A program made the position numbers and the translations under genes. A DNA stretch of 47,285 nucleotides. Origin: a virus. Under the pieces are notes generated by a model. It was not told the DNA's origin. It did not search any database and was given only the letters and a program-made list of their open reading frames with translations. Shown here one piece after another: positions 2,593-47,100 of the stretch (position 1 is its first letter; every line of letters begins with the position of its first letter). Where the stretch lies: positions 1 to 47,285 of the IMG/VR virus record IMGVR_UViG_3300002053_000036, one strand, 5' to 3'.

Positions 2593-3037
2593 ATTTTTTG
2601 TTAGAGAAATAGAGCTTCAATTGGAAAAAGATTTTAATATAGAATTAATTAATCCATTTTTTGATTCAAAAAGAAAAGATATTGAACAACTTAATAATGA
2701 AAATATAAAATTAGCTGTTAGATTAAAATATAGTGATAAGGATGCTACAAAAATAGTTAAAGGTGATTTAAGTTTAATAGATAAGAGTGATGGTATTATA
2801 TCAATCATAGTTGATTCAGAATCAATTGGTTCTTATATGGAAATATTTTATTGTGGATTTGTTTTACATAAACCTGTATATATTATAGCACCAAATATTA
2901 AAATAAGAAAACATTTATGGATTAGATGTTGTTCAACTAAACAATTTGCTTCAGTTAATTCATTTAAAAAATGGCTAAAGAAAAAAGGATATTCAAATAA
3001 TACAATAAATAAAACAACATTCGGGGTTAGAATATGA
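2555..3037 (+). CDS. Nucleoside 2-deoxyribosyltransferase-like protein
   Basis: A 160-residue Rossmann-like protein. It begins M-K-K-F-Y-L-A-H-Q-F, like the first strand of the nucleoside deoxyribosyltransferase family. The later part has V-K-G-D-L-S-L-I-D-K-S-D-G-I-I-S-I followed by S-I-G-S-Y-M-E-I-F-Y and K-P-V-Y-I-I, matching the family's D...sDg, S.GT..E and gKPV blocks. Family members swap or hydrolyse bases of deoxynucleosides or nucleotides. In viruses they can serve nucleotide salvage, base modification or signal degradation. The glutamate in Y-M-E-I is the likely catalytic residue. Start ATG 2555 with AGGTGG upstream. The stop overlaps the next ATG. Confidence 0.75.
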   Translation: MKKFYLAHQFKYRFFVREIELQLEKDFNIELINPFFDSKRKDIEQLNNENIKLAVRLKYSDKDATKIVKGDLSLIDKSDGIISIIVDSESIGSYMEIFYCGFVLHKPVYIIAPNIKIRKHLWIRCCSTKQFASVNSFKKWLKKKGYSNNTINKTTFGVRI

Positions 3038-3435
3038 AAGTGTTAATGCCACCAAAACATTTATGTAAAAAAATGCATAAACTATTGAATACTTTTTATG
3101 AGAATGAAAAAAATAATAAAAGAGCATTAAGTATTGATAATTATAAAATGTATAGGGAAGCTTTTACGATATTCTGTAATTGGTATGAGCTTGAAGTACC
3201 AGTAACTAATTTCAAAAAGAAAATTGATAAGACAAAATCATTAGGTGAATGCACAGAATCAGGAAAAATTATTTTATTATATCCATATGTATTTAATAAA
3301 AGAAAACAAAAAGAAAAACTATCATGTACTTATTTAGGACTTGTATTCCACGAATGGGGACATTATTATTTATGGGCTGACGCTGAAACAAAAGCTTTAG
3401 AATTTGAATTAAGAATGATAAAAAGAGGAAAATAA
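3034..3435 (+). CDS. Zincin-like protein with HEWGH motif
   Basis: A 133-residue protein with a clear zinc-peptidase motif H-E-W-G-H at 106-110, preceded by a hydrophobic strand/helix (Y-L-G-L-V-F). A downstream acidic residue in A-D-A-E-T-K-A-L-E could be the third ligand. It is too short for a known secreted peptidase and has no signal peptide. It resembles the core of SprT/WLM-type intracellular zincins, but the exact family is not recognised. It overlaps the previous gene by ATGA and lies one base before the next. Confidence 0.65.
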   Translation: MKVLMPPKHLCKKMHKLLNTFYENEKNNKRALSIDNYKMYREAFTIFCNWYELEVPVTNFKKKIDKTKSLGECTESGKIILLYPYVFNKRKQKEKLSCTYLGLVFHEWGHYYLWADAETKALEFELRMIKRGK

Positions 3436-3436
3436 A

Positions 3437-3703
3437 ATGCCATATATAAAAGAATGGGAAAGAGAATTATTTGATGCAATATTAAAAGCAATCGACCCTG
3501 ACATACAGTTAAATGCAGGTAGATTAAATTATTTGATAACAAAAATTATTGATAAATATTTAGGTAAAAATCCACATTATTCTGATTATAATGAAGTTAT
3601 CGGTGTACTTGAATGTGTAAAACTTGAGTTATATCGTAGACAAGTTGCTAAATATGAAGATAAAAAATGGACAGAAAATGGTGATGTTTATGGGAAGAAT
3701 TAA
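3437..3703 (+). CDS. Conserved phage protein, DUF6899-like
   Basis: An 88-residue protein that begins M-P-Y-I and contains G-R-L-N-Y-L-I-T-K-I-I near 28-37, then G-V-L-E-C-V-K-L-E-L-Y-R-R (about 60-72) and ends with K-Y-E-D-K-K ... E-N-G-D-V-Y-G. This is a widespread small protein of tailed phages, which I recall as DUF6899. Its function is unknown. Its presence inside this operon ties the metabolic and surface genes to the virus rather than to a host chromosome. Confidence 0.8.
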   Translation: MPYIKEWERELFDAILKAIDPDIQLNAGRLNYLITKIIDKYLGKNPHYSDYNEVIGVLECVKLELYRRQVAKYEDKKWTENGDVYGKN

Positions 3704-4463
3704 AAAAGAAATTGATTATATTTCAGATAAGGATTATTCAGATATTTTAAAAAGACTTTATAAAATAGCCAATAAATTACATATACCAATGTGGTTGAGT
3801 TTCGGAACATTACTTGGTTATGCACAACAGCATAAACGATTTGAATGGGATAATGATATAGATATAGGAACAACAACTAAAGGATTTGATAAATTATTAC
3901 AAAATCTGGATTTAATAAAACAAGAGGGGTTTTTCATAAGAGATAAAGTATTGAAACCTAAGTGTTATAGAGGTTTATTTATTTATGATAAAAAAATACA
4001 ACCATTTCATGTAGATATTAGTGAATTTATTATAGATAAACATAATAGATATACATTTAGATGGTTAATAAGAGTTAATATCCCATCAAAATGTTTTGAT
4101 TATTTATATAAAGTATTTCTAACCATATTAGAATTTACAAATAAGAATAAAAAAATTCCATTTTTTGATTCCAAACAATATTCTAACTATAAAAAAAATA
4201 AAATCACTGGAACAATTGCTGATATGTTATATAAAATAGATTTATTTTTTACAACAACTAGAGAGCTTAAAATGAAAGTTGATACATTTAAAAAAGTAAA
4301 ATATTATGGAATAACTGTTTTAGTTCCTTTTCCAATTGATTCATATTGTGAAGTTAATTATGGAAAAAACTGGAGAAATCCTATTAAGAAAAGAAAAACG
4401 CTTGGTGGCTCTGAATGCTTAAAAGAAAAAATTGATGGAATAGAAAGGTGTTATCTTGAATAA
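3690..4463 (+). CDS. LicD/fukutin-family phosphotransferase
   Basis: A 257-residue protein. The N-terminal block W-L-S-F-G-T-L-L-G-Y (about 34-43) and the metal-binding W-D-N-D-I-D-I-G (about 52-59) are hallmarks of LicD/fukutin nucleotidyltransferase-fold enzymes, and the C-terminus has V-P-F-P ... Y-G-K-N-W-R-N-P as in LicD. These enzymes transfer phosphocholine or ribitol/glycerol phosphate from a CDP donor to a glycan. I place the start at ATG 3690 (GGTGAT five bases upstream). A longer reading from 3624 would overlap the previous gene more. Immediate coupling to a cytidylyltransferase suggests that gene makes its CDP donor. Confidence 0.85.
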   Translation: MGRIKKEIDYISDKDYSDILKRLYKIANKLHIPMWLSFGTLLGYAQQHKRFEWDNDIDIGTTTKGFDKLLQNLDLIKQEGFFIRDKVLKPKCYRGLFIYDKKIQPFHVDISEFIIDKHNRYTFRWLIRVNIPSKCFDYLYKVFLTILEFTNKNKKIPFFDSKQYSNYKKNKITGTIADMLYKIDLFFTTTRELKMKVDTFKKVKYYGITVLVPFPIDSYCEVNYGKNWRNPIKKRKTLGGSECLKEKIDGIERCYLE

Positions 4464-5025
4464 ATTTAGCTGTATAATATTAGCAGGTGGTAAAGGTGAA
4501 CGATTCGGTGGAAAAAAACAAAATGTATATTGGAAAGGTAAACCACTTTGGAAACATGTTTATGATACATGCACCGATGTTAGTGATGATGTACTTATAA
4601 TGGGCTATTCAAAACATGGTAGACAGGGTGCTGTTTATAATGGATTAAAAAAAGTAAAATATGATACTGTTGTTATTGTTGAAGCAGCAAGACCACTCGT
4701 AACAGCTAGACAAATACAACTTTTAGCCATGATAGTATCTGAAAGTTTACCATCAGTATCATATGCTAAAAAATGTACTAATACAATTGTTTGGAAAGGT
4801 ACGCATATTGATAGAAAAAATTGTTATGAGTTATTAGTGCCACAAGCATTTAGGACAAAATTATTATTAAAAGCTCATAAACAATTAAAAGGACTTAATC
4901 GAACATCAGATACAGAAATGATGTATGAAATATTTGGTATTGAACCATATTTATTCATAATCAATGGAAGTAATTTATTTAAAATAACTTATAAAGGAGA
5001 TTTAAAATATTTGGATGTGATATAA
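4456..5025 (+). CDS. IspD-like cytidylyltransferase, probable CDP-polyol synthase
   Basis: A 189-residue protein starting at a TTG (4456) with AGGTG six bases upstream and inside the end of the LicD gene. The N-terminal loop I-L-A-G-G-K-G-E-R-F-G-G-K-K-Q is the nucleotide-binding signature of IspD/TarI-type cytidylyltransferases. A-A-R-P-L-V, V-P-Q-A-F-R and D-T-E-M match later family blocks. It is shorter than typical IspD (about 230). Paired here with a LicD transferase and a dehydrogenase, it most resembles the split halves of Bcs1/TarIJ-type CDP-ribitol synthesis. Methylerythritol phosphate as substrate is less likely in this setting. Confidence 0.8.
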   Translation: MNKFSCIILAGGKGERFGGKKQNVYWKGKPLWKHVYDTCTDVSDDVLIMGYSKHGRQGAVYNGLKKVKYDTVVIVEAARPLVTARQIQLLAMIVSESLPSVSYAKKCTNTIVWKGTHIDRKNCYELLVPQAFRTKLLLKAHKQLKGLNRTSDTEMMYEIFGIEPYLFIINGSNLFKITYKGDLKYLDVI

Positions 5026-5861
5026 TGAAAAGAAAACCAATAACCGTAATTATTCCAACATGGAATAGTATGCCAGAATTAGAACAAACTTTAAAATCAC
5101 TTGGTCCTGCATTTGGTAAATCATTAAAAGAAGTAATAATTGTTGATAAACTTTCTACGGATGATACAATAGAAATAGCTTATAAATACGGGTGTACCAT
5201 ATTTTGGGATGATGGAACATTAGGTCATGCTAGATTGTTAGGGTTAAAACATGCAAGAACAAAATGGGTGGCATGGATTGATAGTGATATTGAATTACCT
5301 AAAGATTGGTATAAAGAAATTTGTAAATCGGTCAATGATAAAACTGGATGGGTGTATGGACAAACAAAAGAAGATATACCATTTGTTGAAGCAGACCATG
5401 AATATAAGCGACAATTAAGAAATAATTTACCACGACAATTAAAAAAAGGTGAATTTGAAAGAGCTTATACAAATAACACAATTACTTTAAGAGAACCATT
5501 ACTTAATGCACCAATAGACAATCTTAATGCATGGGAAGATTATGTAATGTGCCAATGGATGATTAAAAAAGGTTATGATGTTATAGAAATCGCACTTCCA
5601 TGTAAACATCTTAAGCATGGTGTTTACAAAAAATTTGGGTTATATACAGAATCATGGGGAATAGCAGGTGAATTAAAAGCAAAGGGATGGAATCCTAGAA
5701 CATTGATGCGACCTTTTTATTTTGTTTATTGGGGAATACGATGTACCACTCATTTTAAAAATTTTGAATATACTCGATATTACACTAAAGTTTGTTTAGG
5801 CATGTTGAAAGCAATATTCAAAACAAGAAAAGAATGTTTTAATTGGAATCGTGATATATGA
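5025..5861 (+). CDS. Family 2 glycosyltransferase
   Basis: A 278-residue GT-A fold enzyme. It begins with I-T-V-I-I-P-T-W-N-S, then V-I-I-V-D-K-L-S-T-D-D-T (UDP-sugar-binding region, about 37-48) and the metal-binding W-I-D-S-D-I (about 83-88). The C-terminal part is aromatic and basic, with no clear membrane helix, so it probably acts in the cytoplasm or at the membrane face. It starts in a TAATG overlap and ends in an ATGA overlap, within the surface-glycan cassette. Donor and acceptor sugars cannot be deduced. Confidence 0.88.
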   Translation: MKRKPITVIIPTWNSMPELEQTLKSLGPAFGKSLKEVIIVDKLSTDDTIEIAYKYGCTIFWDDGTLGHARLLGLKHARTKWVAWIDSDIELPKDWYKEICKSVNDKTGWVYGQTKEDIPFVEADHEYKRQLRNNLPRQLKKGEFERAYTNNTITLREPLLNAPIDNLNAWEDYVMCQWMIKKGYDVIEIALPCKHLKHGVYKKFGLYTESWGIAGELKAKGWNPRTLMRPFYFVYWGIRCTTHFKNFEYTRYYTKVCLGMLKAIFKTRKECFNWNRDI

Positions 5862-6442
5862 TGGGTGAATTGTATCTACATATTGGTACTATAAAAACTG
5901 GCACGAAATTTTTACAAAAAAAGGTTTTTCCAAAATTAGAAGGGATAAGATTTTACTGGAAACCTAGTTTATCTTATGCTTTAACATTTAAATATATTTA
6001 TCCTAATGATAAGATACTCATAAGTGATGAAAGATTATCTGGTTGGTGCGAAACAAAATTACCAGTATCGTGGAGATATGAAACATTAAAAATATTGAAA
6101 ACAATTTTTCCAGATGCTAAAATAATAATTACATTAAGAACGGATGAAGAAGAATTTATTGAATCTAATTATGCACAAATGTGTGTTGAAAAAGAAGGTG
6201 CATTACATAAATTCGATGGAACATATGAAGAATTTTTAGCTGCATATGATAAAAATTGGAACAATCACATAATGATTATTAAAGAAATAAAATCATTATG
6301 GAATGATTGTTTAATATTATATTATTCTGAATTAGTTAAAGATGCTGATGCTTATGTTAAAAAAATTTGTGATTATATGGGTGTTAAAAAACCAAAATTT
6401 GATAATGTTAGATTAAATTCAAGGGAGAGTAGAAAAAAATGA
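5858..6442 (+). CDS. PAPS-dependent sulfotransferase-like protein
   Basis: A 194-residue protein. The N-terminal L-H-I-G-T-I-K-T-G-T-K-F-L-Q (about 6-19) is the 5'-phosphosulfate-binding loop, and I-I-I-T-L-R-T-D-E-E-E-F-I-E-S-N-Y (about 90-106) matches the 3'-phosphate-binding segment with its arginine and serine. It is short for the family (usually over 250), so the acceptor-binding part is reduced. It probably sulfates a glycan, given the glycosyltransferase upstream and dehydrogenase downstream, both overlapped by ATGA. The start could be either of two adjacent ATGs at 5858 and 5861. Confidence 0.8.
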   Translation: MMGELYLHIGTIKTGTKFLQKKVFPKLEGIRFYWKPSLSYALTFKYIYPNDKILISDERLSGWCETKLPVSWRYETLKILKTIFPDAKIIITLRTDEEEFIESNYAQMCVEKEGALHKFDGTYEEFLAAYDKNWNNHIMIIKEIKSLWNDCLILYYSELVKDADAYVKKICDYMGVKKPKFDNVRLNSRESRKK

Positions 6443-7065
6443 AAAAAATTGTAATAACAGGTGGAAGTGGGGATATTGCACAAGCTGTTAGACAATTATT
6501 AGAAAAAGAATTTATTGTTTATACACCAAGTAAGGAAGAATTAGATATCACATCCACATTTGAAATAAAAAAATATATGGAAAAAATTAAGCCAAATATC
6601 TTAATTAACAATGCAGGGTACATATACAGAGAACCTATTATTAAATTAAATGTATTAGAGCTTAAAAGACATATTAATATTAATTTAATTGGTGCAGCCA
6701 TGTGTTCAAAATATGCAATACTTAATGGTGCAGATACAATAATTAACATCGGCTCAACAGCAGGTTGTGATGGTAAAGCTGATTGGTCGGCTTATTGTAT
6801 CTCAAAAGCAGGATTAATCATGTTATCGGATTGTTTAGCTAAAGAAAATATTAAAGCTATTACATTATCAATTGGTAGAACCAATACTAAAATGAGAAAA
6901 AAATTATTTCCAAATGAGGATGAATCAACATTATTAAAACCAGAGGACATCGCTAATTTAATAAAAAAATTACTATTATCAACTGCTTATGATTCTTTTT
7001 GGGATTCCCATAATGGTAAAAATATAATATATAGAAAAGGTGAAGAAATATGTATAGAAGGTTAA
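6439..7065 (+). CDS. Short-chain dehydrogenase/reductase
   Basis: A 208-residue Rossmann oxidoreductase. The coenzyme loop is V-I-T-G-G-S-G-D-I-A (a variant of TGxxxGIG, about 5-14), followed by I-N-N-A-G (about 55-59), the serine block I-G-S-T-A-G, and the catalytic Y-C-I-S-K (YxxxK). The acidic D-I-T after strand 3 is conserved. All catalytic residues are present. In Bcs1/TarJ-type pathways a reductase makes the polyol phosphate that a cytidylyltransferase then activates. This gene may play that part here, although the substrate is inferred only from neighbours. Confidence 0.87.
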   Translation: MKKIVITGGSGDIAQAVRQLLEKEFIVYTPSKEELDITSTFEIKKYMEKIKPNILINNAGYIYREPIIKLNVLELKRHININLIGAAMCSKYAILNGADTIINIGSTAGCDGKADWSAYCISKAGLIMLSDCLAKENIKAITLSIGRTNTKMRKKLFPNEDESTLLKPEDIANLIKKLLLSTAYDSFWDSHNGKNIIYRKGEEICIEG

Positions 7066-7484
7066 TGCATTTAATCGCTGAAAAAGAATTTATTGATATA
7101 ACTGATATAGTCGAAACGGATGTTAAATTAAGTCAAGTTAAAAAAGGAATGTTATTTATTAACTCAATGCATACAACATTTGGGTTAAAAATAATGGAGA
7201 ACGAATTGTTATCATTAAATGATATAGATGATTTCTTGGAAAAACTTGCACCGATGAATGGTGAATATAAACATAATAAAGTTAAATTAAGAGAAGTGCC
7301 ACCGAATGAAAGATTAAATGGTGCTAGTCATATTCGCATGTTATTCTTTAATACGCAAATTGCCATACCAATTGAGAACGGAAAACTTTTATTAGGTAAA
7401 TGGCAACGAATATTTGCAATAGAAACTGATTGCGACCAAAAAGATTTTAGATTAAGAGAATTAATTATCACAATAATAAAATAA
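7050..7484 (+). CDS. YjbQ/UPF0047 family protein
   Basis: A 144-residue protein of the YjbQ (UPF0047) family. M-H-T-T-F-G-L-K-I-M-E-N (about 39-50) matches the family's HTTaGlxinEn, and N-G-A-S-H-I-R followed by P-I-E-N-G-K-L-L-L-G-K-W-Q-R-I-F match the conserved second half. The family has reported thiamine phosphate synthase side activity, but its biological role is uncertain. Start ATG 7050 has a strong GGTGA site upstream and overlaps the dehydrogenase end by 16 bases. It is the last gene before the convergent hairpin. A viral copy is unusual. Confidence 0.85.
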   Translation: MYRRLMHLIAEKEFIDITDIVETDVKLSQVKKGMLFINSMHTTFGLKIMENELLSLNDIDDFLEKLAPMNGEYKHNKVKLREVPPNERLNGASHIRMLFFNTQIAIPIENGKLLLGKWQRIFAIETDCDQKDFRLRELIITIIK

Positions 7485-7560: not shown

Positions 7561-7737
7561 TTATTCTAATCCTGTTTTTGTTGCTAAACGCAAAGCAAGA
7601 TTCAGTATCGTTATAAAAGCTGCTTGTTCAACAGGGTCTATAACAAAACCATTTATGGATTGAATTAATAATGCACCAAAGGCAATAATATTAACCCATA
7701 GTGTTTTACTTCTCCACCATTCTTTTAATTCTGCCAT
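7561..7737 (-). CDS. Small membrane protein, holin-like
   Basis: A 58-residue protein. It begins M-A-E-L-K-E-W-W-R-S-K-T-L-W-V-N, followed by a membrane helix (about 15-35) and a second hydrophobic helix that includes F-I-T-I-L-N-L-A-L-R-L. Small proteins with a W(x)SKTxW start and one or two helices are common near lysis genes of tailed phages. The ribosome site is a strong GGGGGTGA. It is the last gene of the late operon. Holin function is inferred from size, topology and position only. Confidence 0.7.
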   Translation of the reverse strand: MAELKEWWRSKTLWVNIIAFGALLIQSINGFVIDPVEQAAFITILNLALRLATKTGLE

Positions 7738-7779: not shown

Positions 7780-8064
7780 TTACTTTTTGTAAATTCTTAA
7801 AAATTCTTTCCATAATTGAATATTATATTTTATTGCGTCATAAACTATCCAATAAAGAAATGCAAAACTTAATAGCATAAAAAATTTTTCATGTAAAACA
7901 TAACTTATTGCAAATAATGATGTGAACATTATTAAAAGAAATGCATATTCCTCTGATTTTTTTATTGAAAGATTTTGTTTTTTAAACCACCAATCTTTAA
8001 ATTTAAATATTAATGGGATTGCCATTACCATAATTATTAAACATTCTATTTCTATTATACTCAT
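7780..8064 (-). CDS. Membrane protein with three to four helices
   Basis: A 94-residue protein. The ATG at 8064 (GGGGTGAT upstream, ATGA overlap with the preceding gene) is preferred over a longer reading from 8139, which would only read through the neighbour. Hydrophobic segments lie at about 4-22, 42-60 and 62-80, separated by a basic F-K-D-W-W-F-K-K loop. It is placed between two other small membrane proteins at the end of the virion operon, so a role in lysis or membrane depolarisation is plausible but unproven. Confidence 0.65.
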   Translation of the reverse strand: MSIIEIECLIIMVMAIPLIFKFKDWWFKKQNLSIKKSEEYAFLLIMFTSLFAISYVLHEKFFMLLSFAFLYWIVYDAIKYNIQLWKEFLRIYKK

Positions 8065-8330
8065 GGTATCACCCCAAATATAGCACCTGCTGATAAAGCA
8101 ACTGCTATTATTGAAATTGAAATACCAAAAAACCAGCATAATAATTTTTGAGTTGTTTCAACTTTGGTTAATCTAGTGTCAATATCCGTTATTTGAGCTA
8201 AAAAGAAAAATAATATATCCTTATTTGATATTTTATTATAATCACCATTATTCTCTTTTCTAGCTTCTTTTGCAAATTTTTTAATTTCACTTAATATATT
8301 TTTTAATTCATCTTTATTTACTTTCTTCAT
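8061..8330 (-). CDS. Coiled coil plus membrane anchor, XhlA-like
   Basis: An 89-residue protein with a charged helical N-terminus (about 1-35), a short amphipathic coiled coil (D-I-D-T-R-L-T-K-V-E-T-T-Q) and one C-terminal membrane helix (about 66-86). This layout matches phage haemolysin XhlA-like or related lysis-associated proteins. No catalytic motif is seen. It follows the last tail gene after four bases and overlaps the next gene by ATGA. Confidence 0.65.
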   Translation of the reverse strand: MKKVNKDELKNILSEIKKFAKEARKENNGDYNKISNKDILFFFLAQITDIDTRLTKVETTQKLLCWFFGISISIIAVALSAGAIFGVIP

Positions 8331-37697: not shown

Positions 37698-38141
37698 TTA
37701 ATTATTTTTTAAATATTCCTTATAAGTGTTATAATTTTCATCGGCTAATAATTTATTATTTGTTAAATTATTAGTATCTAATAGTTCGAATTCCGATATT
37801 TGGTAATATTCAATTATAGCTTTTTTATATCCAAATTTTTTAATATCATCGACATATACGAAATATTTTATACCGTCTATTTTACTTTTATATTTTAAAT
37901 ATTTTTTTTCTATATTGTATGTTTTACTTATTAAATACGATATACCGTCAAATAAAGCACTGGTTGTATGATTAAATAAGTTAAATAATGCTTTGTGTAT
38001 ATGTTCATGCTCTAAAGCATCGACTGTTAATTTTATTATTTCCTGTTCGGTTAAACATTCAGAATGCGTTAAGCTTATTACTATATCGTTATGCATTGGT
38101 CGGAATCTAAAACCGTCATCGTCTATTATGTAGTTAGTCAT
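37698..38141 (-). CDS. HExxH protein (HEHIH), paralogue in the other arm
   Basis: A 147-residue protein with H-E-H-I-H at 45-49 and a further histidine eight residues later (F-N-H-T-T-S-A-L-F-D). The plus-strand protein at 40385 has H-E-Y-L-H and G-H-T-A-T-C-L-F-D at the same spacing, preceded in both by L-T-x-x-x-I-x-x-L. They are paralogous small zincin-like proteins. The long lysine-rich C-terminus is not shared. Substrate and activity are unknown. Confidence 0.7.
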   Translation of the reverse strand: MTNYIIDDDGFRFRPMHNDIVISLTHSECLTEQEIIKLTVDALEHEHIHKALFNLFNHTTSALFDGISYLISKTYNIEKKYLKYKSKIDGIKYFVYVDDIKKFGYKKAIIEYYQISEFELLDTNNLTNNKLLADENYNTYKEYLKNN

Positions 38142-40384: not shown

Positions 40385-40816
40385 ATGGAACAACCAAAAG
40401 TAACTATTAAAGATTCTAATCCAACAACTAATTTATTATATCGTAATCAAACCTATTATGATGAATCAACAAATGAAATAGTATTGGGTTTAAAAATTAA
40501 TGTTACTGATTTTTTAACTGATAGACAAATTCAAAATTTAAGTGTTGAAATGATTTCACATGAATATTTACATTATTTAATTAAACGAGAATTTGGTCAC
40601 ACAGCAACTTGTTTATTTGACGCTATTGAACATCTTGTCGCTGTGCATAAAGGTCAAGCTTATTTAAGATTTGTTAAAAAATTTCATAATTATTGTTCAA
40701 GAAAGTGGGAAACAGCGATTAAAAAAGATGGTTTAGAATATTTCTATCGAGCAAAGGATATAACAAAAGATGATGTTAGAAGAGCTAATGAAATTTGTAA
40801 TAAAAGGAAAGTTTAA
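40385..40816 (+). CDS. HExxH protein (HEYLH), paralogue of the 37.7 kb gene
   Basis: A 143-residue protein. H-E-Y-L-H at 59-63 is followed eight residues later by G-H-T-A-T-C-L-F-D, as in its paralogue on the minus strand at 37698-38141. The strand before the motif is D-E-S-T-N-E-I-V-L-G-L. The spacing HExxH-x8-H differs from metzincins. A minimal zinc hydrolase is likely by motif. GGTGAT precedes the ATG. Confidence 0.7.
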   Translation: MEQPKVTIKDSNPTTNLLYRNQTYYDESTNEIVLGLKINVTDFLTDRQIQNLSVEMISHEYLHYLIKREFGHTATCLFDAIEHLVAVHKGQAYLRFVKKFHNYCSRKWETAIKKDGLEYFYRAKDITKDDVRRANEICNKRKV

Positions 40817-41179: not shown

Positions 41180-41335
41180 ATGACAGAGTACAGCGCAATA
41201 GCTAATATTAAATTAAATGCCGAAACACCTGATGATATGCTTGATATATTGCTTATACTTTTAAGAGATAACGGCTTTAGGGGACACATAACAGTTATTA
41301 AAGATAATGGTGATTCTATTATTGAGGTGCTATAA
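41180..41335 (+). CDS. Small alpha-beta protein, 51 aa
   Basis: A 51-residue protein: strand, helix (D-D-M-L-D-I-L-L-I-L-L-R-D-N-G-F) and two strands, like half of a ferredoxin-like fold. The stop overlaps the next start (TAATG). The first bases include ACAGAGTACAGCGC, which also occurs in the non-coding region near 35493. Confidence 0.6.
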   Translation: MTEYSAIANIKLNAETPDDMLDILLILLRDNGFRGHITVIKDNGDSIIEVL

Positions 41336-41652
41336 TGAAAACTGAAAAATTCGATTTACATATTAAAATAAATTGGATTTCATTCAATAGGACAGCGTGT
41401 GTTGATTATACTGATAAAAATATTTATCTTAACCTTAAAAATTTAAAAAAAGAATTAACAACTATACATAAATTTGGTATTAATAAAACCTTTAGTGAAA
41501 TTATTGCAGGTGCTATTTCGCATGAAGAAATCCATAGAGTATTAAGACAAATAATTAGTCAAGAAGCTTCACACAAATTTGACAACTATGTTAAAAAAAG
41601 ATTATATAATAAGAAAAAACTCATTAGAATGATTGATGAAGGAATGTGGTAA
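41335..41652 (+). CDS. Third small HExxH protein (HEEIH)
   Basis: A 105-residue protein with H-E-E-I-H at 63-67, preceded by a strand (K-N-I-Y-L-N-L-K-N) and by I-I-A-G-A-I-S, and followed by Q-E-A-S-H-K-F-D-N-Y. It resembles the HEYLH and HEHIH proteins in length and layout, but the histidine eight residues on is replaced (next histidine at 80). It is a probable diverged paralogue, and the zinc site needs testing. Confidence 0.65.
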   Translation: MKTEKFDLHIKINWISFNRTACVDYTDKNIYLNLKNLKKELTTIHKFGINKTFSEIIAGAISHEEIHRVLRQIISQEASHKFDNYVKKRLYNKKKLIRMIDEGMW

Positions 41653-45151: not shown

Positions 45152-46024
45152 ATGATAATAATACCTAGACAATTAAGAAATAAAGATTTTAGATTCATAA
45201 AAATTCTTTCAAAGAATAAAAAACCAATTGAGAGAGATTGGCAAAATACTAATAATTATACATATGATAATGCAGAGCTTCTTAATTGGTTAAACAATAA
45301 TAACAATTATGGAATAGTGTGTGGTCGTGGAAATTTAGCCGTTGTTGATTGTGATGAACCAGAAATAGCAGAGCTTATTAGTAAAACATTACCAGAAACA
45401 TTTACAGTTAAAACTGGAAGTGGTGGTAAGCATTATTACTACATTGTTTATGATTGGGATAAAACAACAACACTAACAAAAAAGATAAAAGATAAAACAG
45501 GCAATATAAAAGAAGAAATACATTGTGGTGAAATTCGTAGTACAAATTCTCAAATTATAGCACCTAATTCAATACACCCTAATGGAAAGCGATATGTGAT
45601 ATTAAATGATTCACCCATTATTCATATACATAGAACAACATTAGAAACTATACTTTATGATTATATAGATAAACCAAAAACTAAAGTTAATGATACAAAA
45701 AAAGATTATCATAAGTATAGACCAATTGATATTAATAAAATATTAAAATTAGAATCATTAAATCAACATGGTAATGAATATCAAGGTTCACACCCTATAC
45801 ATGGTTCTACAACCAGAATGAATTTTTCTGTTAATGTAGATAAATGTATCTGGCATTGTTTCAGGCATAACACAGGTGGTGGAATAGTGACATTGATTGC
45901 CATGTTAAATGGAATCATAAGGTGTGCTGATTGTCGAGAGGGTTGTGTAACACCAACAATATTTAAAGAAGTTGTTGAATTAGCAAAAACAAAATATGGA
46001 ATAATAATAGATGAAGGTGAATAA
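45152..46024 (+). CDS. Archaeal/viral-type primase-polymerase (PrimPol)
   Basis: A 290-residue AEP-superfamily protein. Y-G-I-V-C-G-R-G-N-L-A-V-V-D-C-D (about 48-63) carries the catalytic DxD. V-K-T-G-S-G-G-K-H-Y-Y (about 84-94) has the histidine motif, and I-I-A-P-N-S-I-H-P-N-G-K-R-Y (about 130-143) the third motif. The C-terminus has G-S-H-P-I-H-G-S-T-T-R-M-N-F and W-H-C-F-R-H-N-T-G-G-G, a CHC2-like zinc site, then a second cysteine pair (C-A-D-C-R-E-G-C). It should lay down primers for replication with the SF3 helicase. Confidence 0.9.
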   Translation: MIIIPRQLRNKDFRFIKILSKNKKPIERDWQNTNNYTYDNAELLNWLNNNNNYGIVCGRGNLAVVDCDEPEIAELISKTLPETFTVKTGSGGKHYYYIVYDWDKTTTLTKKIKDKTGNIKEEIHCGEIRSTNSQIIAPNSIHPNGKRYVILNDSPIIHIHRTTLETILYDYIDKPKTKVNDTKKDYHKYRPIDINKILKLESLNQHGNEYQGSHPIHGSTTRMNFSVNVDKCIWHCFRHNTGGGIVTLIAMLNGIIRCADCREGCVTPTIFKEVVELAKTKYGIIIDEGE

Positions 46025-46505: not shown

Positions 46506-46787
46506 ATGGAAGAAAATAAAAATGATGAAGGAAAAATAATAAGATTGAATATACACGATGATGCTGGGACAAAAGATACTTTAAATAAGCCAACAAAAGC
46601 AGATATAATATTATTACAGAAAAAAATAATAGCATATCTAGTTAGTGCTAAAAAGATTTCAGAACAAGAGCTTAATATTTATTTGAATGCAAAGCTGACA
46701 ATATTAGCTGAAGTACAAAAACTGAAAATAAAAGTAATGGATGAAATAATAAAACAAAATCAAAAAGAGATAGATAATGTCAAATAA
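46506..46787 (+). CDS. Helical protein, 93 aa
   Basis: A 93-residue protein; residues 30-90 form a long helix (I-I-A-Y-L-V-S-A-K-K-I-S-E-Q-E-L; L-T-I-L-A-E-V-Q-K-L-K-I-K-V). Acidic residues dominate the start. It overlaps the resolvase gene by 11 bases. The function is unknown. Confidence 0.55.
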   Translation: MEENKNDEGKIIRLNIHDDAGTKDTLNKPTKADIILLQKKIIAYLVSAKKISEQELNIYLNAKLTILAEVQKLKIKVMDEIIKQNQKEIDNVK

Positions 46788-47100
46788 AAATTATGTAAAA
46801 GGTAGAGCATTTGAGTATAAAACAAAAAAAGAATATGAGAAAAAAGGTTATCTTGTATTTAGAACAGCAGGTTCTCATTCGGTTGCTGATTTAATAGCAG
46901 TACCACCGATAAGTTGGACACATGAATGGAATCCAATATTAATACAATGTAAAACAACGAAAGACAAAAACATAAAGAATTTAACTAAAGTCAGAACAAA
47001 ATACAAAAAAGATGTAAGTGAGTTACAAAAAGTTGCACATGAATATGGATGCAGAGCTATATTTTATGTGCAAAATTTAAAAATAATTGTGGAGAAATAA
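46777..47100 (+). CDS. hjc-like: Hjc-like Holliday junction resolvase
   Basis: A 107-residue PD-(D/E)XK nuclease. K-G-R-A-F-E-Y (8-14) supplies the N-terminal glutamate and R-T-A-G-S-H-S-V-A-D-L-I-A (about 29-41) the serine/aspartate block of archaeal Hjc. I-L-I-Q-C-K-T-T-K (about 54-62) is the last motif, with glutamine in place of the usual glutamate (ExK to QxK). It resolves recombination or replication intermediates before packaging. Archaeal Hjc proteins are about this long. The E-to-Q change needs checking for activity. Confidence 0.85.
   Translation: MSNKNYVKGRAFEYKTKKEYEKKGYLVFRTAGSHSVADLIAVPPISWTHEWNPILIQCKTTKDKNIKNLTKVRTKYKKDVSELQKVAHEYGCRAIFYVQNLKIIVEK

Follow-up and report, generated by a model that had tools for sequence, protein, structure and literature searches.

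A six-gene cassette in an uncultured, AT-rich tailed virus probably forms a portable viral module that makes a cytidine diphosphate (CDP)-activated polyol and transfers it to glycans of the host cell surface. It occupies positions 3690–7484 of the window, the whole 47,285-base stretch analysed here (IMG/VR virus record IMGVR_UViG_3300002053_000036). In order, it encodes a LicD protein, an IspD-like cytidylyltransferase, a GT2 glycosyltransferase, a sulfotransferase, a short-chain dehydrogenase (SDR) and a YjbQ protein in one overlapping operon. An earlier note on this DNA, made from the letters alone, had named these six proteins as one coupled operon, and we confirmed it: each has a significant Pfam match and the junctions can be read from the sequence. 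Six curated families in tandem, together with an insertion absent from five relatives, exclude a chance pattern of open reading frames (ORFs). Because the window holds a Bcs1/ISPD/FKRP-type set as three genes (SDR, IspD and LicD), we conclude that the virus probably makes and transfers polyol phosphate, a central idea that is well supported by sequence comparison and structural models. The GT2, sulfotransferase and YjbQ proteins would be accessory to this core.

Known enzymes provide precedent for each part of the core. From ribulose-5-phosphate, Bcs1 makes CDP-ribitol by a reduction that uses NADPH and an activation that uses cytidine triphosphate (CTP) (PMC10299916). CDP-ribitol made by ISPD is used by FKTN and FKRP, and there are bacterial ISPD homologues joined in one protein to a reductase or a LicD domain (PMC4873967). 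LicD proteins take CDP conjugates, and CpsC, the LicD protein of a capsule system, takes CDP-polyol (PMC11666461). In the window, the SDR would take a ketose phosphate resembling ribulose-5-phosphate and yield a polyol phosphate, which the IspD-type enzyme would combine with CTP into CDP-polyol, and the LicD/FKRP-type enzyme would move polyol phosphate from CDP-polyol to a glycan. The GT2 enzyme would assemble or extend the acceptor glycan, the sulfotransferase would place sulfate on the same or a neighbouring sugar, and YjbQ may carry out an accessory step on a phosphorylated intermediate or aid substrate supply. The product would decorate host cell-surface glycans during infection, for receptor masking or superinfection exclusion. 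We infer each of these reactions, their order, the identity of the polyol and the surface target. Host-surface glycans are our first-choice target since they are the commonest bacterial use of such enzymes, and because the cassette ends a rightward operon that it shares with replication-type genes, it probably acts on them during infection.

We gathered fused IspD–SDR proteins from Marinisomatota, Campylobacterota and Melainabacteria genomes and found that their SDR domain is without a segment that follows beta-2 in generic SDRs and bears a C-terminal motif, RTxTxMR...F..E...LL..P..A. A loose form of this motif occurs in 20 of 21 fused proteins versus none of 15 generic SDRs. The window SDR has the shortened Rossmann segment, carries the motif (RTxTxMR..F..E..LL) and fits its strict form. 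A maximum-likelihood tree, computed without four very long generic rows that had pulled the window row in a first tree, split 11 generic SDRs from 21 fused SDRs and the window SDR (support 100/98); after removal of the long-branched row from Yersinia phage GN1, the split still stood at 100/97. The earlier note had considered that the dehydrogenase might fall with lipid enzymes; it groups instead with Bcs1-architecture reductase domains, apart from generic FabG-type SDRs. By these comparisons it is a reductase of the Bcs1 type, in an alignment that leaves the Haemophilus influenzae Bcs1 sequence itself outside. The IspD and SDR of the window are separate ORFs, not a fused protein.

The transferase points the same way. 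A 14-row LicD alignment showed an invariant acidic triad (D54xD56xD58, a DxDxD motif, in the window) and conserved GTLLG and YGxxW..P motifs, so the metal residues, whose possible loss in relatives had been raised earlier, are kept. The AlphaFold model is confident in its core, and all 13 PDB matches at E ≤ 0.001 were to FKRP, the human CDP-ribitol:ribitol-phosphate transferase. The best NCBIfam match is a cholinephosphotransferase (Mf1-type), at 46.9 bits against a cut-off of 225. We predict that the window LicD is a probable CDP-polyol:glycan polyol-phosphate transferase. Searching phages and plasmids with it by tblastn returned no match.

The cytidylyltransferase is modelled as a complete fold despite its short length, with a predicted local distance difference test (pLDDT) score of 87. 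It retains the invariant residues R16, K21, P129, F132, K176 and T178, including the Arg/Lys of the CTP loop and the PQxF/KIT motifs. Against the equivalog model for the methylerythritol phosphate (MEP) pathway IspD (TIGR00453), it scores 95.6 bits, under the cut-off of 181.3. Foldseek did not discriminate: IspD of the MEP pathway, TarI and the human ISPD all matched (TMq about 0.83–0.85), so structure is unable to name the substrate. The common pathway proposed in the earlier note is supported in part, by the SDR grouping, the LicD metal residues and a gene order that recurs in another virus; the IspD model fits this pathway and an MEP role equally. In a tree, the window IspD joins that of this other virus (contig L139, below) and the IspD domain of Yersinia phages GN1/YerA41 (support 100/99, with long branches as a caveat); in all of these, two residues are missing ahead of the KQ in the CTP loop. 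One fused phage gene is the best match of both the window IspD and the window SDR. The Yersinia phage fused gene (L008 11272–12651, LC779065.1) has the Bcs1 architecture and is followed by a GDPD-family gene; its annotation hides the reductase half.

The core recurs in viral genomes. Single-sequence scans of viral contigs with IspD, LicD and SDR were empty, and relatives were reached only with alignments. These revealed the order LicD–IspD–SDR–YjbQ, as separate genes preceded by two glycosyltransferase-like genes, in the unrelated contig L139 (IMGVR_UViG_3300035698_008958); there, GT2 and sulfotransferase genes do not lie in between. L139 appears T4-like by eye (sheath-stabiliser-, UvsX- and DnaB-like proteins), and its proteins are 38.5% (IspD, E 1e-37), 42.5% (SDR, 5e-42) and 44.5% (YjbQ, 2e-36) identical to those of the window, with 31% in the LicD core. 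Another viral contig (L092) carries GT2, LicD and a fused IspD–SDR, and in L141–L143 separate IspD and SDR genes are adjacent. Other viral LicD genes cluster with TagD-type cytidylyltransferases (CTP_transf_like; L134, L135 and L138) or sulfotransferases (L134). Positions 1822–8947 of L134 suggest a viral phosphonate-glycan cluster: besides two LicD genes and a sulfotransferase, they encode a CTP_transf_like enzyme and what looks by eye like a phosphoenolpyruvate-mutase/phosphonopyruvate-decarboxylase set.

Cellular genomes show a similar linkage. Using a motif search within 6 kb, we found LicD directly after the fused IspD–SDR gene in six of eight Marinisomatota genomes versus none of 35 single-domain loci in the same genome scan. 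No LicD motif was found within 1.5 kb of nine Campylobacterota fused genes. A Pfam scan of 31 neighbours of fused genes not linked to LicD identified Glyphos_transf four times and LicD and GDPD once each, and a CDP-alcohol phosphatidyltransferase as well. Of the loci compared, it is L139, with the same gene order in an unrelated virus, that makes the cassette core look like a real, portable viral pathway.

Comparison with relatives of the window virus marks the cassette as an insertion. Its terminase is 61–71% identical to those of 15 IMG/VR viral contigs, five of which are near full length and have the same flanking genes (G001, G010, G011, G012 and G014). In all five the site is empty, with 21–154 bp from DUF6899 to the next ORF, so we interpret the cassette as a ~3.8 kb insertion in the window virus. 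The opposite-strand genes that follow DUF6899 in these relatives run on into homologues of window positions 7780–8139 and 8061–8330. Neither LicD nor IspD turned up in any of the 15 terminase relatives, in searches that did match the control genomes. The earlier note had set the start of the cassette at 3437, which belongs to the DUF6899 ORF, a backbone gene present in all five near-full-length relatives; we rejected DUF6899 as a member because it occurs there without the cassette. The GC content of the cassette equals that of the backbone and codon use correlates with it at 0.987; the cassette is therefore not a compositionally recent import.

Gene overlaps across the operon range from 1 to 16 bases. 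The DUF6899/LicD junction is a 14-base overlap with the LicD ATG at 3690, and the LicD/IspD junction is an 8-base overlap with a TTG start at 4456. IspD/GT2 meet at TAATG, and both GT2/sulfotransferase and sulfotransferase/SDR at ATGA. SDR/YjbQ overlap by 16 bases if YjbQ starts at ATG 7050, or meet at TAATG if it starts at ATG 7065.

Table 1 The cassette genes, as predicted, and the backbone genes on either side.
Feature	Positions	Strand	Basis
DUF6899, a gene of the backbone and outside the pathway; marks the upstream edge of the insertion	3437..3703	+	PF21840 E 9.5e-27; cassette-free in five relatives
LicD/fukutin-type phosphotransferase of nucleotidyltransferase fold, 257 amino acids	3690..4463	+	Pfam LicD PF04991 E 2.5e-7; alignment; model
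Compact IspD-type cytidylyltransferase, 189 amino acids, TTG start	4456..5025	+	Pfam IspD PF01128 E 2.2e-15; model; tree
GT2 glycosyltransferase, 278 amino acids, DSD motif	5025..5861	+	Pfam Glycos_transf_2 PF00535 E 1.8e-19
Sulfotransferase, 194 amino acids	5858..6442	+	Pfam Sulfotransfer_3 E 5.6e-11
SDR reductase, Bcs1-architecture type, 208 amino acids	6439..7065	+	Pfam adh_short E 5.4e-19; RTNTKMRKKLFPNEDESTLLKPEDIA motif; tree split 100/98
YjbQ/UPF0047, 139 amino acids from ATG 7065 or 144 from ATG 7050	7065..7484	+	Pfam UPF0047/YjbQ E 1.7e-28
Small membrane ORF, holin-like by eye, backbone; downstream boundary of the insertion	7561..7737	-	Translation; similar minus-strand ORFs of 60–74 amino acids after DUF6899 in relatives

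The remaining three proteins are recognisable members of their families. The sulfotransferase has a KTGTKF P-loop and an R...S.Y 3'-phosphate motif, both read by eye, and scores 43.6 bits against a Sulfotransfer_3 cut-off of 27; we take it to carry out sulfation dependent on 3'-phosphoadenosine 5'-phosphosulfate, while the GT2 enzyme presumably builds or extends the acceptor glycan. A search for the sulfotransferase against phages matched none. YjbQ exceeds its NCBIfam cut-off (83.9 versus 67.75 bits), and among 18 viral and phage records checked it was found only in L139, so that its tie to the module comes from two viruses. Both viral YjbQs (window 7050–7484, L139 6566–7000) share an insertion, REVPPNERL in one and RDVPSTERI in the other, at which the window protein is eight residues longer than its closest PDB homologue, 2p6c, in the alignment with that structure.

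Several observations weigh against the surface-glycan module that we favour. The HDxARP motif of IspD reads VEAARP in the window, placing Glu rather than Asp at a metal-binding position; the same replacement occurs in L139 and GN1/YerA41, and Glu is also found in the viral IspDs of L141–L143. We rejected the IspD phylogeny by itself as proof of CDP-polyol function, as CDP-polyol and MEP enzymes do not separate once GN1 and L139 are left out. Outside its core the LicD model is poorly resolved (pLDDT 58.8 overall). Since L139 has no GT2 or sulfotransferase between the core genes, operon membership is what ties sulfation and glycan building to the core. We saw neither a lipid carrier nor a flippase nor a membrane anchor in the cassette, and a terminase scan of 84,980 bacterial and archaeal species recovered no provirus. 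Finally, the YerA41 relative makes viral DNA a serious rival to the cell surface as the target.

On that alternative, which we judge unlikely, the module would place polyol phosphate, perhaps with sulfate, on a base-linked glycan as a shield from host nucleases. The nearest phage homologue of both IspD and SDR is the single fused GN1/YerA41 gene, whose cluster its authors assign to sugar-modified nucleotides (PMC7354516). YerA41 thymidine carries an extra mass of ~1044 Da with 184 m/z steps and no hexose fit (PMC9023294), and we computed residue masses of 184.01 Da for tetritol phosphate, 214.02 Da for ribitol phosphate and 154.00 Da for glycerol phosphate. Equating the steps with tetritol phosphate is our inference from a numerical coincidence, which is no evidence about the window. 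The YerA41 link from gene to modification is itself presumed, neither LicD nor a sulfotransferase nor YjbQ was matched in the part of its cluster that we read, and a Pfam scan of 51 other window ORFs found no thymidylate-synthase, hydroxymethylase or base-kinase family.

Decoration of the virion, with a glycan bearing polyol phosphate and sulfate on capsid or tail proteins, strikes us as quite unlikely. By eye the cassette enzymes are without obvious membrane segments and could act on cytosolic proteins, and GT2 and sulfotransferase would suit a protein-linked glycan, but the cassette lies outside the late structural operon, on the opposite strand. We give a similarly slim chance to a polyol-phosphate pathway evolved by viruses, with YjbQ as a new pathway enzyme and viral DNA or a viral glycan as substrate; if true, the same chemistry would account for the 184 Da units of YerA41 as tetritol-phosphate residues. 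We also think it improbable that chance brought enzymes without a common pathway together at a moron-rich operon end, with IspD serving isoprenoids, the SDR lipids or cofactors and LicD choline phosphate: an MEP function is compatible with the IspD structure and tree taken alone and the best LicD NCBIfam match, far under its cut-off, is a cholinephosphotransferase, but the four-gene order is repeated in the unrelated L139, the SDR has the Bcs1-architecture motif, cellular homologues are fused and LicD-linked, and none of the 15 terminase relatives has an IspD match.

The minus strand of the window encodes a terminase large subunit (~29% identical to cultured phages), a portal and a tape-measure protein; elsewhere there are small genes of early type and genes for a Prim-Pol primase and a D5-like helicase. 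The primase (45152–46024) adjoins an ORF at 46777–47100 with a weak match (E 5e-4, just under cut-off) to Hjc, the Holliday junction resolvase of archaea; the host may be archaeal. A cysteine-synthase-like pyridoxal-phosphate enzyme at 1284–2207 (PALP E 2.9e-56) is also found in relative G001 (L009 9908–10858, 49% identical), which is without the sulfotransferase cassette. Four small proteins carry an HExxH-type motif (3034–3435 HEWGH, 37698–38141 HEHIH, 40385–40816 HEYLH and 41335–41652 HEEIH) and may make up a single family of small, metal-dependent proteins within one virus. PADLOC matched none of its known anti-phage defence families.

Sugar-conversion genes are already known from phages. 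Literature searches found no virus-borne route with both its own synthesis of a CDP-activated polyol and its own FKRP-like transferase. Such a route would show viruses to rewrite glycans with polyol phosphate. Its small, single-domain proteins would serve as models for ISPD and FKRP, the enzymes affected in human dystroglycanopathies, and it would provide a pathway context for YjbQ and a concrete chemical guess for the YerA41 DNA modification.

The cassette can be set beside four known systems and the recurrent viral locus. The CDP-ribitol synthase Bcs1/Acs1 of H. influenzae, a fused IspD–SDR, combines the same two activities that we predict here, and proteins of that architecture have the shortened Rossmann segment and the C-terminal motif found in the window SDR. 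Unlike Bcs1/Acs1, the window divides them between two genes with GT2 and sulfotransferase in between, and its IspD is cut down in length, with Glu at the metal-binding position. The fused gene of Yersinia phages GN1/YerA41 is the nearest cultured counterpart of the window IspD and SDR, with the same deletion before KQ and Asp-to-Glu change; it differs in being fused, in lacking a recognised LicD, sulfotransferase or YjbQ beside it and in a cluster tied by its authors to modified nucleotides. L139 is a different type of virus, with its glycosyltransferase genes upstream of the core rather than within it. In the TarI/TarJ ribitol-phosphate pathway, as in the window, cytidylyltransferase and reductase are separate, and the window IspD model matches TarI structures; however, TarJ is a medium-chain dehydrogenase whereas the window reductase is an SDR, and the window has no Tar polymerase. 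The ISPD–FKTN/FKRP dystroglycan pathway operates in the eukaryotic Golgi and, unlike the window, has no dedicated SDR reductase identified, but there too an IspD-fold synthase feeds LicD-fold transferases, among them FKRP, the best structural match of the window LicD.

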